Part shown: positions 82-6,676 of the stretch, piece after piece
Numbering within the stretch: position 1 is the first letter of the stretch
How the letters are laid out: every line of letters starts with the position of its first letter
Source of the DNA: an uncultured Planctomycetaceae bacterium
GTDB lineage: Bacteria > Planctomycetota > Planctomycetia > Pirellulales > Pirellulaceae
NCBI GenBank assembly: GCA_903927685.1
Contig: CAIYOB010001590.1
Coordinates: 1-6,676 of the forward strand
DNA: 6,676 nucleotides
Direction of reading: 5' to 3'
The notes under the pieces: generated by a model
Told to the model about the DNA's origin: nothing
What the model saw: the letters and a program-made list of their open reading frames with translations, nothing else
Database searches by the model: none
Position numbers and translations under genes: made by a program

Positions 82-537
82 TTGATCATGAAACGTCACG
101 TCCGCATGCTGCTGACTGTCCTGCGAGCGATCGTTCCACTGCTTCTGCTGGCGGGCGGAATTGTATCGCTGGTGTACGGCGTGACCCGGCATTCGGCCGT
201 CGTTTCGGTGGAGCAGGAAATCGAAGTCGATTTGGCGGGACCGCCAGGGCTGACGCCGCCAGGACTGGACGGACCTCTGCCTCCCGGCCAGTTTCCACCC
301 GATGGCGGCTTCGGTCCGCCGGACGGCGGATTGGTCGACCCTGCGTTGGCCGTCCCGCCACCCTGGCTGGCGCCGCCGCCGGAACTGACCAAGGTCAAGC
401 AGAAAGTCGTCATCAGCGAGCCGACTCCGGAGTTGACCCTGATTCGCGAGGTGACGTTTGGGGGAGTGACGAGACTGAGTTCCGGCGAGCTGTGGCGGAC
501 CTATACCGGGGCACCGCCTTCGCTGTGCCCTACGTGA
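82..537 (+). CDS. Small single-pass membrane protein, Pro/Gly-rich, unknown function
   Basis: This frame encodes 151 aa from TTG 82, or 149 aa from ATG 88. AGGAG at 71-75 lies 6 nt before the TTG and 12 nt before the ATG, so either start is possible. Residues about 10-34 form one hydrophobic transmembrane segment after a basic N-terminus, suggesting an N-in anchor or uncleaved signal. Residues about 52-100 are a Pro/Gly-rich spacer with repeated PP, PDGG and GPP units, probably extended outside the membrane. Residues about 101-151 look more folded (IREVTFGGVTRLSSGEL) and end in CPT. I do not recognise the family. It lies directly upstream of an iron-sulfur membrane protein and could be an anchor or assembly partner for it; that role is inferred only from position. 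The unrelated frames on the other strand look like shadows of the GC-rich Pro/Gly stretch. Confidence 0.7.
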   Translation: MIMKRHVRMLLTVLRAIVPLLLLAGGIVSLVYGVTRHSAVVSVEQEIEVDLAGPPGLTPPGLDGPLPPGQFPPDGGFGPPDGGLVDPALAVPPPWLAPPPELTKVKQKVVISEPTPELTLIREVTFGGVTRLSSGELWRTYTGAPPSLCPT

Positions 538-563: not shown

Positions 564-1397
564 ATGACCAAAGGCAATTCGATTCCGCTATCAGCCCGGC
601 TCGCGCGCTGGCGAGTCTGGGTTCAGGCGGTGTTCACGCTGGTCTGGCTGGACCCGCTGGCGCTGCGCATGCACACCGTGTGCTCGCCCGTGTTTCACTG
701 CTACTCGTGCCCGCTGGCCCTGTTCGCCTGTCCGATCGGCGTGCTGGCCAACTTCAGCGCGTTGCACCTGATCCCCTACGTCGCGTTGGGCACGCTGGTG
801 GTGGTCGGGGTCCTGCTGGGCAGCTTCATTTGCGGCTGGGTCTGCCCCTTCGGTTTTCTGCAGGACTTGATCGGCAGGCTCCCGACCCGCAAGTTCGAGC
901 TGCCTGGGTGGCTGGGTTACGGACGCTATATCGTGCTCGTGAGCCTGGTCCTGGCGGTTCCCTATTTCTTTGGCGAGGAGCATCCGCTGTTCTTCTGCCG
1001 GGTCTGTCCCGCCGGAGCGTTGGAAGCCGCTTTGCCGTATACGGCCAGCACCGTCGTGGCGGGCAACGTCGTCTGGCCCACCGCGGCCAAGCTGGTTGTT
1101 TTCGGACTGGTCCTGGCAGCCATGTTCTTCACGTGGCGGCCCTGGTGCACGCTGCTCTGCCCGCTGGGGGCGATTTACGGGCTGTGCAACAAGTTCGCGT
1201 TCGTATTCCTGAAATTCCATCCCGAGCGGTGCAACGACTGCGACCTGTGCCGCCGGTTGTGCCGCTATCACGGCCGCTCGGAACGGCTGGGCGACGAGCA
1301 GCGTTGCATCCGCTGTCTGGATTGCACGCGCTGCAGCGCCGTCACGGTGTCGCATGTCTTTCAGCTGGAGCAAACCGAAGAAAGGAGCGTGATATGA
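564..1397 (+). CDS. NapH/NosR-like polytopic membrane protein with 4Fe-4S clusters
   Basis: This is an integral membrane electron-transfer protein of the 4Fe-4S-binding (Fer4_5) NapH/NosR/YccM type. Family members pass electrons from the quinone pool to periplasmic reductases or support cofactor maturation. Numbered from ATG 564 (277 aa), the membrane part carries C40/C46/C49/C56 (the last followed by Pro), C90xxxC94P, C145xxC148P and C195xxxC199P. Hydrophobic helices lie at about 72-90, 120-136 and 173-190. The C-terminus holds two ferredoxin-type motifs: C223xxCxxCxxxC233 and C248xxCxxCxxC257. The second motif lacks the usual trailing Cys-Pro. The frame is open from a GTG at 492, but that would overlap the previous gene. 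GTG 555, 6 nt after GAGG (545-548), or ATG 564 just after that gene's stop are more likely starts. The TGA stop (1395-1397) overlaps the next ATG. The electron acceptor is unknown; the neighbouring secreted protein is a candidate. Confidence 0.9.
   Translation: MTKGNSIPLSARLARWRVWVQAVFTLVWLDPLALRMHTVCSPVFHCYSCPLALFACPIGVLANFSALHLIPYVALGTLVVVGVLLGSFICGWVCPFGFLQDLIGRLPTRKFELPGWLGYGRYIVLVSLVLAVPYFFGEEHPLFFCRVCPAGALEAALPYTASTVVAGNVVWPTAAKLVVFGLVLAAMFFTWRPWCTLLCPLGAIYGLCNKFAFVFLKFHPERCNDCDLCRRLCRYHGRSERLGDEQRCIRCLDCTRCSAVTVSHVFQLEQTEERSVI
1381..1387 (+). promoter_or_regulatory. Ribosome binding site for the secreted-protein gene
   Basis: AAAGGAG lies 6 nt before ATG 1394 and fixes this start. The open frame runs upstream to about 680, but that stretch overlaps the iron-sulfur gene out of frame. 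The ATGA stop/start overlap indicates translational coupling. Confidence 0.85.
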
Positions 1398-3106
1398 AAC
1401 GACGGTTGATCCGTTGGTCAAGCGTCGCGGCGGTCCTGATGACCGTGGCGAGCGCTGCGACCGCGGAGGCAGAGACGTGTGCTCTGCAAATCAAGCGGTT
1501 GGAATCGGCGACCGCCCGCACGACGGGACCGCCGACCGATCAAATGTTCCGGGGTATGTATCCCCAGCGGTTCTTCCGCCAGACCGGGCTGGAGATCGCG
1601 GGTCGCCCCGGGGCCGACGACGAGGCGGAGTTCGCCAAGGTCATTACCAAAGAGCCCGCCAGTTACAACTCGAAGTCCCCGTTTCGCGCGGTTGCCAAGC
1701 TGGGGACGCAGCAGTTCGGCTTCGTGATCGACAGCCGCAAGGCGGAAGAGGCCGCTGCGGAACCAGCCAAGGATGCGGCCAAGCAACCCGCCAAGGAAGC
1801 CGTCGCCAAGCCGGCGCGGCCGGTCCCGGCACTGCCCGCTTACGGCCGGCTGCTGTTCGACGTTAACCACAATGGCGACTTGACGGACGATCCGGTGATC
1901 GAGGCGCAGACGACGCCGGAACGCGGCTTCCCCGCGGGATACCTGAGCTTCTCGTTTCCCCGCGTCGATCTGACCGTCGAGGCCGACGGCACCAAGATCG
2001 ACTTTGCCTTTACCGTTGACGGGTACGGCCACTCGCAGGTGCTGAATGAGAATCAAACGTACCAGTATGTGTCCGTATCGCTGAATGCCGCCGCCTATCG
2101 CGAAGGCGAGATCACACTGGACGGCAAGCAGACGCGGATCGTGGTCACGGACTACAACAGCAACGGGCGCTTTGATGACCTGTGGGCGATCGACGACAGC
2201 ATTTCGCTGTCGGACGGCACGGTCTATCCACGGCAGGGCGACGTCCTGTTCGTGGACCCGCAGGCGGCCCAAGGCGGTCTGTACGGCTACGATCCGACCA
2301 TGAACGACGTCCAGCAGTTCGTGGCCAAGGCCGTGCAGATCGGCGGGCGGTTCTACACGCTGCGGATCACGCCGGCCGGCGACACGCTGACCTTGGAGCC
2401 GTCGCCGCTGGCCGTCGGCCAGGTCAGCAACCCGAACCGCGGCTACCGTGCCCTGGTCTATGGCGACCTGGGGATTCTGAAGGTCAACGGCGACGCGGAA
2501 GGCCGAGCGCCGTTGCCCGTCGGTTCCTGGAAGCTGTTGATGTACACGATCGATCGTACGGGCATCCAGGATCCGGCCCAACCGGCGGCCAAGGAGCCGT
2601 CGCTGCTGCAATCGCTGGCCAACGCCCTGTTGCAGCGTGAGCCAGCCTCCGGCCCCACGATCGTCTCGGCGCGGGCCAAACGCGACTGCCCAGCCATCGA
2701 AGTCAAGCCAGGCGAAACGGCCGAACTGCGGTTCGGCGCGCCGTACCGAGCCGAAGTCACGGCCTCGGGACCGATTCCCCCCGGGGGCACGGTTTCTCTG
2801 GGGCTGGCGCTGGTCGGCGTGGGCGGCGAAGTCTGCAGCAACTTGATGGTTGCCGGTCAACGGCCGGACAAGCCGCAGTTTACGATCACCGATCCCGATG
2901 GCAAAGTTATCCAGCAGGGTAGCTTTGAGTATGGTTGAGGGTTCACCTGCCGGTACTCGTGGCGAGTACCATCCGAACCTGCGAAAGAGTATCGCGTGAA
3001 AGTGCAGATGAAGGCCGGCCCATTCCCGGTCGATGAAACCTACGTGAACGTTCTCAAGCCGACAGGCGGAAAGGGCCCGTCGAATATGTACCGCCCGCTG
3101 CCGTAG
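1394..3106 (+). CDS. Candidate selenoprotein: secreted beta-rich protein with in-frame UGA (Sec515)
   Basis: The frame encodes 514 aa up to TGA 2936-2938, then 55 more in-frame codons to TAG 3104-3106, or 570 aa with UGA read as selenocysteine. The N-terminus (residues 1 to about 26) is a Sec-type signal peptide with a basic start and an Ala-rich cleavage region. Residues about 115-147 are a Lys/Glu/Ala/Pro linker. D156 and D253 each open a DxNxNGxxxDD- or DxNxNGxxDD-type loop that resembles Ca-binding loops. The last ~140 residues look like an Ig-like beta sandwich that a UGA stop would cut before its final strands. The UGA lies in FEYG-U-GFTC, followed by RYSWRVP, so Sec515 and Cys519 form a UxxxC pair; other cysteines are C29, C432 and C481. 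A SECIS-like stem-loop follows the UGA directly. The paralogous fragment at 5837-5971 preserves the post-UGA frame with mostly synonymous changes. Function is unknown; it may act as an exported redox partner of the preceding iron-sulfur protein. The alternative is a nonsense mutation, giving a 514-aa truncated product. Confidence 0.6.
2936..2980 (+). promoter_or_regulatory. SECIS-like stem-loop directly after in-frame UGA
   Basis: After TGA 2936-2938, an inner stem pairs GGTACTC (2952-2958) with GAGTACC (2964-2970), all seven pairs Watson-Crick, around loop GTGGC (2959-2963). An outer stem pairs GGTTC (2940-2944) with GAACC (2975-2979), extendable by a G-U pair (2939/2980). The internal loops are 7 and 4 nt. 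Bacterial SECIS elements sit just downstream of the UGA inside the coding region, with a small apical loop carrying a G in the first two positions at roughly 16-37 nt from the UGA. Here the distance is 20 nt and the loop begins GU. The element would recruit SelB with Sec-tRNA. A chance hairpin in coding DNA is possible, but the fit in position and loop is good. Confidence 0.6.
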
Positions 3107-3144
3107 CGAGACTCACACGAGTCCCGCTGGCGCTGGCCAGACTG

Positions 3145-3173
3145 CCGGGACGGTCCGCCGAGGACCGTCCCGG
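3145..3173 (+). terminator. Strong 12-bp hairpin after the operon (terminator-like, no U-tract)
   Basis: CCGGGACGGTCC (3145-3156) pairs perfectly with GGACCGTCCCGG (3162-3173) around loop GCCGA. It lies 38 nt after the TAG at 3104-3106 and is followed by TGGCATTTCG with only a short T run. It suits a transcription end or mRNA 3' stabiliser for the operon. Its place relative to the TAG, not the TGA, agrees with the gene ending at 3106. A smaller hairpin, GACTC-ACAC-GAGTC (3110-3123), precedes it. The 12-bp hairpin recurs identically at 6010-6038. Confidence 0.6.
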
Positions 3174-3183
3174 TGGCATTTCG

Positions 3184-3761: not shown

Positions 3762-5315
3762 TCACAAGGCTTCCGAAGTCCGAACTCTTGCGAGTCCGGC
3801 AACACGGGTTCCCGGCTTGTTCGCCGGCACGGCTGCGGTCCGGCGCTGGCCAGCCGGGACCTGGATGGTGACACGGCTGACCGAGACGCCACTGAGGACC
3901 TGGGGGCTTGCCGCCTGCGGCGAGCCGTCGATATGGATGACGGGATGCGTGCCAGGGAAGCATGCCTCCCAGGTGAGGTCCGGACCGACGTTGTTCATGA
4001 CGGTGGTGGACCGGTTGTGGTCGGCGTGCCGCACGAGGAGGTCGTTCGGGCCCATCGGCAGATGGTCCAGCTGCGCCCAGGCCACTTCCGCCGGCAATCG
4101 TCCCAGGGTGCTCAGCACGCGGCCGGGGGCGTCGGGTTCGATGCCCATGATGCGTGTGGCGATGTGGCTGATGACGGTGAACGACACTTCGGGATAGCTC
4201 GACCGGCTGTCCAGGACGTGCTGGAAATACCGCCACCCCCGCTCGTTCTGGTTCCAGGCGTAGAAGACATCGGGCAGATAAGTCCAGGCCTCGATGTTGC
4301 GGCTGGGCCTGGCCTGAAAGCTGGCGTCGATGAAGTCCAGGTAGGCCGTCGCCCGCGGGCCGGGCTCGCACAACCCGGTGTAGGGAATGAACCAACTTGT
4401 CTCGTAGCCGAAGGCGTTCACCGGTCGGTAGCCGGGATGGTCGAAGCCAACCAAGTAGCGGCCCACGGCGGGATCGTACCAGGTGTCGTTGAATACGCGT
4501 TTCAGCCGCTCGGCCTTTCCGGCCCAGACCTGCGCAGCGGAATCGTCGCCGCTGGCCCGCAGGAGATGCGCGTACGCCTCGAACGCCCGGTACTGCGTTC
4601 CCAGGCTGTCGGCGGCCTCGGCGAGGACCGTTCCCGGAATCTCGTTGTAGGTGCACGCGATGCCCCAGCCGTGCGAGGCTGCCCCCTCGGCGATGCCGTT
4701 GCCGTTGCGGTCGTGTGCGGCGATGAACTCCTGGACGGTGCGGGCATAGAATCGCTGCAACAGTGGATCCTGGATCAGTGCGGGATCTGCGGTCCAGCGA
4801 TGCATGCGATAGGCCCCGTGGAGCAGATCGAACATGCCCGCGGTGTTCCTCCAGAAGTTCCCGTCGTCGCGGTAGTCACAAGCCATGGGCGTGCCATCGT
4901 AATTGATCTCCCACAGGCTGAACCAACCCCTGGCCTCGGTCTGGTTCGTAGCAAAGCACCTGAGCATGGCCCGGTTCTCACGGTGCAGGCCCAGCAGGGC
5001 CGCGCCGTCAATCTGGTGGACGAAATCCCGCTGGCAGTATCCACCCCGGTCCTGCAGGGCAGCCTGGTAGCAGCCGCCGTTGTCGGGATGAACCTTGCCG
5101 AGAGCGGTCCTCTTGGCCCAGGCGAACCCCTCGGTCAGATAGGGACTGCTGGAGCTGAGGACGAGAGCTTCGGAAGACGATGAGGCCGCTGCCTCCGTGG
5201 CGACGGGGCCCGAGGACGCGACGCGCAGCGGCTCCGCGCCCGCGCGGTCCGCAGCGAGCGGTGCCGCCAGTGACGCGACCAGCAGGACGGTAAGGAGCGG
5301 GCTGGCGTATTTCAT
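3762..5315 (-). CDS. Secreted six-hairpin glycosidase-like protein
   Basis: The product is 517 aa from ATG 5315-5313, with AAAGGAG (5326-5320) 4 nt upstream. The N-terminus is a signal peptide (residues 1 to about 27) followed by a Ser/Ala-rich linker to about 57. The rest looks like an (alpha/alpha)6 barrel of the six-hairpin glycosidase superfamily, as in the GH63/MGH1 and GH78-like groups. It has an aromatic- and Gly-rich start (GGCYQAAL at about 80-87, YCQRDFVHQIDG at about 93-104), NFWRNTAGMFDLLHGAYR at about 153-170, NEIPG at about 224, and a late helical region with WAQLDHLPMGPNDLL. The exact family and substrate cannot be told from sequence alone; a role in exported polysaccharide breakdown is inferred. 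The last ~12 residues (LARVRTSEAL region) are encoded by repeat-like hairpin DNA, so the original C-terminus may have been replaced. The gene stands alone, convergent with the left operon. Confidence 0.8.
   Translation of the reverse strand: MKYASPLLTVLLVASLAAPLAADRAGAEPLRVASSGPVATEAAASSSSEALVLSSSSPYLTEGFAWAKRTALGKVHPDNGGCYQAALQDRGGYCQRDFVHQIDGAALLGLHRENRAMLRCFATNQTEARGWFSLWEINYDGTPMACDYRDDGNFWRNTAGMFDLLHGAYRMHRWTADPALIQDPLLQRFYARTVQEFIAAHDRNGNGIAEGAASHGWGIACTYNEIPGTVLAEAADSLGTQYRAFEAYAHLLRASGDDSAAQVWAGKAERLKRVFNDTWYDPAVGRYLVGFDHPGYRPVNAFGYETSWFIPYTGLCEPGPRATAYLDFIDASFQARPSRNIEAWTYLPDVFYAWNQNERGWRYFQHVLDSRSSYPEVSFTVISHIATRIMGIEPDAPGRVLSTLGRLPAEVAWAQLDHLPMGPNDLLVRHADHNRSTTVMNNVGPDLTWEACFPGTHPVIHIDGSPQAASPQVLSGVSVSRVTIQVPAGQRRTAAVPANKPGTRVAGLARVRTSEAL
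3780..3799. repeat. Short palindromic motif inside the glycosidase 3' end
   Basis: CCG-A-ACTC-TTGC-GAGT-C-CGG forms a hairpin with one A/C mismatch and a TTGC loop. It lies in the last codons of the glycosidase. With the hairpin at 3723-3761 and the 102-bp element it makes a run of three palindromes in 180 bp, typical of repeats that collect at gene ends. Confidence 0.4.
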
Positions 5316-5721: not shown

Positions 5722-5971
5722 GACGACAGCATTTCGCTGTCGGACGGCACGGTCTACCCGCTGCAGGGCGACGTCCTGTTCGTGGACCCGCAGGCAGCCC
5801 AAGGCGGTCTGTACGGCTACGATCCGACCATGAACGTCCGAACCTGCAAAAAAGTATCGCGTGAAAGTGCAGATGAAGGCCGGCCCATTCCCGGTGGACG
5901 AAATCTATGTGAGCGTCCTCAAGCCCACCGGCGGAAAGGGCCCGTCGAATATGTACCGCCCGCTGCCGTAG
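5722..5971 (+). pseudogene. Truncated second copy of the candidate selenoprotein gene
   Basis: Positions 5722-5836 match 2192-2306 at 111 of 115 bases, and 5837-5971 match 2972-3106 at 125 of 135 bases. The 665 bp between (2307-2971) are missing, which shifts the frame and removes the TGA and the SECIS-like stem-loop. The 5' ~800 bp of the gene, with start, signal peptide and first Ca-type loop, are also absent. In the original frames the pieces encode DSISLSDGTVYP to DPTMN and then SEP to MYRPLP plus TAG. It cannot make a working protein. The homology continues past the TAG to 6048, including the 12-bp hairpin. Confidence 0.9.
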
Positions 5972-6009
5972 CGTGGCTAAGGCGAGTCCCGCTGCCGTTG
6001 GCAAAACCG

Positions 6010-6038
6010 CCGGGACGGTCCGCCGAGGACCGTCCCGG
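6010..6038 (+). terminator. Second copy of the 12-bp operon-end hairpin
   Basis: CCGGGACGGTCC (6010-6021), loop GCCGA, and GGACCGTCCCGG (6027-6038) are identical to 3145-3173, and identity runs on to GGCATTTCG at 6048. It follows the truncated gene copy and came with it. It may also act on transcripts leaving the - strand TPR gene. Confidence 0.55.
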
Positions 6039-6056
6039 TGGCATTTCGGTCCCCCA

Positions 6057-6676
6057 TCAGCGTCGCGATCGGGTATCGCGATGCCGAGCGCAGGCGAAAT
6101 CGCAGGCGGCCAGATCGTCGCGACCCAAGACGCGATAGACCAGGCCGCGGTTGTGGAAGCCCTCGGCTTGGTCCGGCGCCAAGGCGACGCAGGCCGAAAA
6201 CGAAGCCAGGGCAACTTCGTAATCGTGCCGGCGGTAGGCGCAGATCCCGGCGTAGAAGTTGGGCCAAAACGCCTGGGGCTCGATCTCCACCGCGTACGAC
6301 AGCTCGGTCGCCGCCTCCTCAAGGTCGCCGGCCCGCAGCCGAGCCCGGCCCACGGCGTAATGCTCCCAGACCGTCTGCGGCGCCAGTTGCGCCGCCGCGC
6401 GAGCCGCCCGCTCGGCCTCGGAGGCAAGTCCCAATGCCTCGGCGTAGGCTCGCTGCTCGGTGCTCAACACGACGCTTCGACCGAACTCGGCTTCGGCTTG
6501 CGTCAAGACCTGCAGGGCCTCGCGGCGCGCTTGTGCGAGCTGTTCCGCGGATGCCAGTCGCACATGCAGGTCCGCCCAGAGAATCGCTAGTTCGAGCCAA
6601 TCCGCGCGCAGTCGCCGTTCGGTGTCGGCGGCAAGTCCGCCGTCAGTCCGGCTCGTCCCTTGACGCCGACCTTGCC
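6057..6676 (-). CDS. TPR protein, C-terminal part (likely Ser/Thr kinase C-terminus), runs off window
   Basis: The - strand frame is open from the window edge to TGA 6059-6057, giving about 206 codons. A leading helix region (RRLRADWLELAILWADLHVRL, split by its Leu/Trp pattern) is followed by an Ala/Glu-rich helical stretch. Next come about three TPR units: WEHYAVGRARLRAGDLEEAA, then AFWPNFYAGICAYRRHDYEVA, then AEGFHNRGLVYRVLGRDDLA. This order and these sequences match the C-terminal TPR block of planctomycete Ser/Thr protein kinases; the kinase domain would lie outside the window. The third TPR breaks into an Arg-rich tail (RHRDTRSRR) and the stop lies only 9 bp from the end of the duplicated segment at 6048, so the gene end was probably altered by that rearrangement. 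A GTG at 6563-6561 could be read as a start, but family-like sequence continues upstream of it. Confidence 0.75.
   Translation of the reverse strand, partial: QGRRQGTSRTDGGLAADTERRLRADWLELAILWADLHVRLASAEQLAQARREALQVLTQAEAEFGRSVVLSTEQRAYAEALGLASEAERAARAAAQLAPQTVWEHYAVGRARLRAGDLEEAATELSYAVEIEPQAFWPNFYAGICAYRRHDYEVALASFSACVALAPDQAEGFHNRGLVYRVLGRDDLAACDFACARHRDTRSRR

Follow-up and report, generated by a model that had tools for sequence, protein, structure and literature searches.

An apparently undescribed, large family of predicted bacterial selenoproteins that annotation programs cut short at an in-frame UGA

The stretch of DNA analysed here, hereafter the window, comprises 6,676 nt of a contig from an uncultured Planctomycetaceae bacterium. 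Three frames lie closely packed on its forward strand: a small protein (82–537) with an N-terminal membrane segment, as judged by eye, and the C-terminal residues L-C-P-T; a NapH-like membrane Fe-S protein (492–1397; Fer4_5, PF12801, E 1.4e-15), whose true start may be further downstream; and the predicted selenoprotein gene on which this report centers (1394–3106), the start of which (1394) overlaps the stop of the preceding frame (1397). On the frame at 492–1397, the NapH models of NCBIfam scored 56.9 and 56.6 bits, below their curated cut-offs of 234 and 213.05; this neighbor is NapH-like only.

Farther along the same strand, a broken second copy of the gene (5722–6048) joins a piece resembling 2192–2306 to one resembling 2972–3183 (97% and 91% identity) and lacks everything that the main copy has between positions 2307 and 2971, including the Sec codon and the hairpin discussed below. 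Seven of the ten codons that differ in its tail piece are synonymous. Both copies are followed by a GC-rich hairpin (inverted repeat I1; 3145–3174 and about 6010–6040), perhaps a shared terminator. The remainder of the window contains a 27-nt inverted repeat (3621–3647/3696–3722, 78% complementary, 48 nt apart) and, on the reverse strand, a secreted-looking protein (3762–5312) with no Pfam or NCBIfam match as well as a TPR protein (6057–6674).

The first part of the gene, 1394–2938, forms a 514-aa open reading frame closed by TGA at 2936–2938, behind which 55 sense codons (2939–3103) lead in the same frame to TAG at 3104–3106; the in-frame TGA and the extension, first noticed in a sequence-only reading of this DNA, were thus located exactly as proposed. 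Read through, the gene is predicted from its frame, its homologues, and a structural model to specify 570 residues; Sec would be residue 515, and the tail contains the Cys519 of a G-U-x-x-x-C motif. The AlphaFold model had a mean pLDDT of 89.8 and placed strands at residues 519–524 and 533–538, so that the tail would complete a C-terminal, putatively Ig-like domain. The N terminus resembles a signal peptide by eye.

Open frames behind a TGA are common in such DNA: among 186 control ORFs from related contigs (mechanically called, at least 200 aa in length, and ending in TGA), 78 continued for at least 40 open codons. As the fold described below reaches a z-score of only –1.83 as well, the TGA and hairpin of the window are near chance when taken alone. 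It is comparison that lifts codon and hairpin above chance, namely open tails of at least 40 codons in 59 of 59 TGA copies (window included), a covarying hairpin core, and a codon bias within the stem.

A protein database search returned 427 matches and a second one, using the tail-bearing profile A2, 384. From the best 120 of 427 and the best 120 of 384, we compared 154 distinct proteins, including the window's own truncated product (P0002). The motif preceding the TGA (F-x-Y-G-like) was the end of 152 of these 154 proteins, P0002 among them, in line with the sequence-only reading, which had supposed that automatic annotation ends the protein at the UGA. The two exceptions are P0026, which carries Leu at the site and reads through, and P0012, which ends elsewhere; none of the 154 proteins drawn from these best matches reads through with Cys.

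Scanning GTDB contigs with alignment A1 yielded 61 loci (L numbers), in 48 of which the site was readable by tblastn. Their 59 copies held TGA in 58 cases and TGT (Cys) in one, Cys being the only replacement of TGA in this set. The lone Cys copy is a paralogue (L038:3936-5498) from a genome that also has several UGA copies. Behind the TGA, the sequence G-F/G-x-C-x-Y-S-W-R-V-P or a variant of it follows in frame, with the tail extending for at least 40 codons, and the window agrees with the family in codon, hairpin, and tail at conserved positions. Judging by record titles, the loci with UGA stem from Planctomycetes and their groups, Omnitrophota, Verrucomicrobia/Opitutia, Sumerlaeota, and Armatimonadetes, so that the UGA is kept across loci titled as five phyla. 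Members of the Candidatus Nealsonbacteria have small genomes; this title, borne by contigs L007, L016, and L021, is probably wrong, as the genome behind L007 measures 9.1 Mb. In 30 of the 59 TGA copies, the window's included, the next in-frame stop is again UGA, indicating that UGA still serves as a stop in these organisms and has not been generally reassigned.

Immediately behind the TGA, the sequence-only reading had described a two-part stem-loop, of which the inner part stood and the outer did not. In the window, positions 2952–2958 pair with 2964–2970 to form 7 bp around the loop GTGGC (2959–2963), at a distance of 20 nt from the TGA. The minimum free energy (MFE) fold adds an eighth pair and leaves a UGG triloop; for positions 2936–2985, the MFE amounted to –17.7 kcal/mol (z –1.83), a value equalled by 9 of 200 shuffles. 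From 59 sequences, RNAalifold recovered only a 6-bp core (2953–2958/2964–2969), which—with its loop—delimits the predicted SECIS hairpin core at 2953–2969 on the forward strand. The outer stem is absent from this consensus of 59 sequences, i.e. it is not conserved.

Across the covariation set (59 aligned TGA copies, 54 of them distinct), the core was paired in 99.7% of cells. Changes on both sides of a pair were found in 22 cells compared to a shuffled mean of 2.0, a number reached by none of 500 shuffles, and the count fell to 0–4 when one strand was slid. Coarser measures were less discriminating: 15 of 500 shuffles attained as many pairs changed on both sides (4 of 6), and 29 of 500 attained the 8 further pair types seen. 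Codon choice in the stem deviates from that expected from the same genes, with GTA for Val in 48 of 54 cases (2.7 expected), CGA for Arg in 47 of 53 (6.8), TCG for Ser in 41 of 48 (17.8), and TAC for Tyr in 48 of 49 (31.2), these codons being rarer elsewhere in the same genes; due to the relatedness of the sequences, the P values of the hairpin and codon tests are not to be taken literally. Measured against the bacterial SECIS consensus as given in PMC13188914 (section 5 and legend of Fig. 2A), 46 of the 59 family hairpins, including that of the window, lie within the limits on stem, loop G, and energy, and the remaining 13 violate the limit on the loop: 11 have ATGGC there, and ATGGG and CTTGC occur once each. 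Hence, apart from the outer stem, the SECIS-like layout ascribed to the window holds up, both by the published limits and by covariation across the family. Compared to that consensus, the stem sequence of the family is unusually uniform across loci.

If UGA is to be read as selenocysteine, the corresponding machinery should be encoded, and the sequence-only reading had pointed to the sel genes. We looked for them in 35 family-bearing genomes, which account for 35 of the 61 loci, and in 14 control genomes. A threshold of 60 bits for tRNA-Sec, chosen for this analysis, was reached by 29 of the 35 family genomes; at its own cut-off, which 31 of 35 family genomes but also 5 of 14 controls pass, the model is unspecific, and all 14 controls match at E 0.001. 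SelB exceeded its cut-off in 28 of 35 family genomes compared to 2 of 14 controls. Taken together, 33 of the 35 possess a strong tRNA-Sec, SelB, or both. Of the other two, G014 has just a partial SelB, and in G025 both SelB and a strong tRNA-Sec are missing; likewise, SelB was not detected in G043 and G164, which carry the UGA-bearing domain. Gaps in metagenome-assembled genomes may account for the missing genes in all four. Within Planctomycetota, SelB was present in 134 of 199 genomes sampled, that is, in 21 of 23 with a UGA-bearing domain vs. 113 of 176 others (one-sided Fisher p 0.006).

Only in part of the loci is the family gene physically linked to sel genes. ARAGORN placed tRNA-Sec (selC) within 7 of 51 loci scanned, and matches to SelA, SelB, or SelD occurred in 10 of 61; the other 51, many of them short, showed no selA, selB, or selD match within the contig DNA searched. 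A NapH-like match was found in 14 of 61 loci. Six loci (L006, L010, L017, L024, L028, L032) share the gene order selD, selC, NapH-like gene, family gene. In L010, this reads selD, selC, small protein, NapH-like gene, and three family genes, whereas L028 has selB and selA on the opposite strand, then a double-cubane reductase, its activase, selD, selC, a NapH-like match, and three family genes. The reductase and activase (L028:1924-6033) thus reside within the same Sec locus, and the SelD of L010 (L010:2529-4211; 561 aa) is fused to an AhpD-like domain.

Once the part overlapping the tRNA was removed, the small protein of the window (82–537) found relatives in L010 (E 1e-14), L009 (2e-11), L030 (9e-8), and, weakly, L024 (0.002), which have in common the N-terminal membrane segment, again by eye, and the C-terminal L-C-P-T; in L009, L010, and L024, it stands between selC and the NapH-like gene. 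The window enters this conserved order midway, with the small protein, the NapH-like gene, and the family gene (1394–3106), leading us to predict selC and selD just upstream of window position 1.

The C-terminal domain extends well beyond the family first noticed. Profile A5, built on this domain from 57 rows, has an invariant Gly, Sec, and +4 Cys. Among 199 Planctomycetota genomes it has matches in 28; of the 45 rows obtained, 38 contain exactly one TGA. The seven rows without a stop comprise five that end before the site, one with Tyr (L101), and a weak one with Ala (L133); in L101 (L101:479-3976), two neighboring copies have UGA and Tyr, respectively, at the aligned place. Two further phyla yielded A5 matches, namely that to which the genome carrying L015 belongs (titled Omnitrophota; 3 of 14 genomes) and that of the genome carrying L048 (titled Verrucomicrobiota; 3 of 194), with one TGA in each of their 13 rows. 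The Sec domain with UGA was found on many architectures, e.g. in forms whose long tail seems to be membrane-bound (L006:3170-4603, L001:5230-6657), in forms adjoining selA (L104, L098), and in six copies within L055. Divergent forms may lack the +4 Cys (e.g. L117, L124, L128, L129) or have a Cys immediately before Sec (L122, L125, L127). Consequently, the proposal of a new family is supported and was too narrow in extent: to judge from these alignments, the window family forms a single branch within a larger superfamily that contains UGA. The proposed pairing of Sec515 with Cys519 is based on the invariance of both residues throughout A5 (57 rows); divergent forms are devoid of that Cys.

Among the closest known systems are alpha-2-macroglobulin and other Ig-like domains, as the Sec domain seems to resemble Ig-like folds, and the thioredoxin-like proteins of the AhpC-TSA and Thioredoxin_2 types, which the family profile found to have a related N-terminal region. 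In 8 of 9 chosen relatives of that region, a thioredoxin-like C-terminal domain occupies the place where the family has its Sec domain. Two further frames bear on the distribution of UGA codons. An 837-codon frame with the N-terminal region of the family (L057:6447-8957) ends in Y-T, followed by TGA and G-G-G-C, and adjoins a Sec locus (selD, selB, and a double-cubane match); its end is likely another Sec site. In L059:5015-6328, a thioredoxin-like frame has an in-frame TGA inside the domain, to be explained by an error, by a disrupted gene, or by a further Sec site.

Taken as a whole, these observations are best explained by an exported selenoprotein whose codon 2936–2938 specifies Sec, a reading to which we assign a probability of roughly 95%. 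The apparent stop codon of the window gene is almost certainly read as selenocysteine, given that the UGA is conserved across five titled phyla, the hairpin covaries, and relatives encode tRNA-Sec and SelB. We infer both Sec insertion, from sequence comparison, and export; a periplasmic redox role is our best guess. SelB and tRNA-Sec would decode the UGA as Sec under the direction of the hairpin downstream (2953–2969), giving a product of 570 residues. Its N-terminal region, rich in beta structure, has two D-x-N-x-N-G-type motifs, and in its putatively Ig-like C-terminal domain a turn (G-U-G-F-T-C) connecting two strands would harbor Sec515. In the proposed redox role outside the cytoplasm, the neighboring NapH-like Fe-S membrane protein would pass electrons, with Sec515 as the reactive residue and Cys519 as the resolving thiol. 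The small protein encoded alongside, with its conserved terminal Cys, is a possible redox partner and might also pass electrons.

The most serious challenge concerns the role of Sec rather than its presence. A structural or metal-binding residue would fit a domain that seems to resemble Ig-like folds instead of a classical redox fold, and divergent branches keep Sec while losing the +4 Cys. We nevertheless consider such a role rather unlikely, since G-U-x-x-x-C is invariant throughout the 57 rows of A5, the chosen N-terminal-region relatives mostly bear thioredoxin-like domains (8 of 9), and the neighbor in the window, as in 14 of 61 loci, is a gene for an Fe-S membrane protein. Far less probable is that a genuine family is represented in the window by a decaying paralogue or by a copy with a sequencing error: a broken second copy does lie in the window, but codon, hairpin, and tail of the main copy match the family at conserved positions.

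Scarcely credible, too, is an ordinary stop, with the downstream frame untranslated or a remnant. Database annotation ends 152 of 154 compared proteins at the site and open frames after TGA abound in the controls (78 of 186), yet the protein sequence of the tail is conserved in frame in loci whose titles range from Planctomycetes to Armatimonadetes, the final strands of a domain predicted with confidence come from it, and where the two copies of the window differ, seven of ten codons are changed synonymously. Insertion of another amino acid (Trp, Cys, or Gly) through a suppressor or a code change is just as improbable, for the protein alignment by itself says only that UGA is sense, and this alternative is opposed by UGA as next in-frame stop in 30 of 59 TGA copies, by the covarying hairpin behind the codon, by tRNA-Sec and SelB in relatives (beside the gene in part of the loci), and by Cys as the sole replacement among 59 GTDB copies.

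With decoding as Sec being the preferred reading, the question arises which SelB would recognize the hairpin. In a midpoint-rooted tree of 49 SelB rows from 36 genomes, selected by hand, one side of a branch (support 100/95) unites 18 rows, one from each of 18 genomes, all of which have the UGA domain; none of the 7 domain-free genomes falls into this group. The SelBs of L104 and L152 are members, that of L151 is not. The 14-row core of the group (98/93) contains 8 of the 9 SelBs located near a UGA-domain gene, and each of the ten genomes with two or three SelBs contributes exactly one to the 18-row group. On the other hand, the SelBs of 11 UGA-domain genomes fall elsewhere in the tree, two of these genomes having strong domain matches (G047, G095) and nine divergent domain forms (G048, G057, G061, G078, G085, G091, G129, G145, G165), and four rows of the tree are very long, one of them (G035) inside the group.

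Among genomes with SelB, at least two SelB matches occurred in 6 of 21 that have the domain vs. 5 of 113 others (p 0.002 in a post hoc comparison). Three SelB-like proteins per genome were seen in G046, G067, and G013, some of them on very long branches, and of the genomes with a strong tRNA-Sec (29), only G019 has a second tRNA-Sec. As for other UGA genes, G007 encodes two that are formate-dehydrogenase-like and whose hairpins differ from those of the family, with a GUU triloop in L189 and, by eye and not as the MFE fold, a GGUCU loop in L197, a contrast that is thin. It is conceivable, if somewhat doubtful, that the canonical branch has its own second SelB, specialized for its unusually uniform (G/A)UGG-loop hairpin, co-inherited and partly encoded beside it, alongside a housekeeping SelB for ordinary hairpins; we regard the tree as a lead to such a dedicated factor, not as proof.

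The family also appears to be undescribed, as the sequence-only reading had surmised. No NCBIfam model matched any of 13 proteins (P0001, P0026, P0067, and ten relatives) at E 0.01, and no Pfam model exceeded its cut-off for P0001 or the ten relatives; four homologues among the matches listed (best 120 of 427) have a precomputed Pfam domain. A 2026 catalogue counts 119 prokaryotic selenoprotein families (Table 1 of PMC13188914), in no row of which the present family could be recognized. Likewise, none of the rows of that table gives the motif G-U-x-x-x-C, rows with the motif entry '-' not being comparable. A full-text literature search, covering the main texts of published papers, found no description of the family. 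TsoA (the LULAxC motif selenoprotein, NF045695) is listed with the motif U-x-x-x-C, i.e. the U-to-C spacing of the family; the 13 proteins above matched neither this nor any other NCBIfam model at E 0.01. With the prokaryotic selenoproteins catalogued in PMC13188914, the family has in common a UGA-coded Sec, a hairpin downstream, and often a nearby Cys. Most characterized selenoproteins have a thioredoxin-like fold according to the same source, in contrast to the Ig-like appearance of the Sec domain here.

If Sec insertion is true, a large selenoprotein superfamily of the PVC group, with members in some further phyla, would be added, one that methods relying on Cys counterparts would hardly detect. 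It would carry Sec on an apparently Ig-like rather than a thioredoxin-like domain, sometimes in tandem and in a locus of Sec genes. Hundreds of database entries would then be mis-annotated (427 matches, with the ends of 154 compared), devoid of their last strands and of the reactive residue. Given a SelB branch that accompanies the canonical form, how one cell separates two SECIS-reading factors would become directly testable. More generally, the superfamily would help explain what purpose the widespread Sec machinery of planctomycetes serves.
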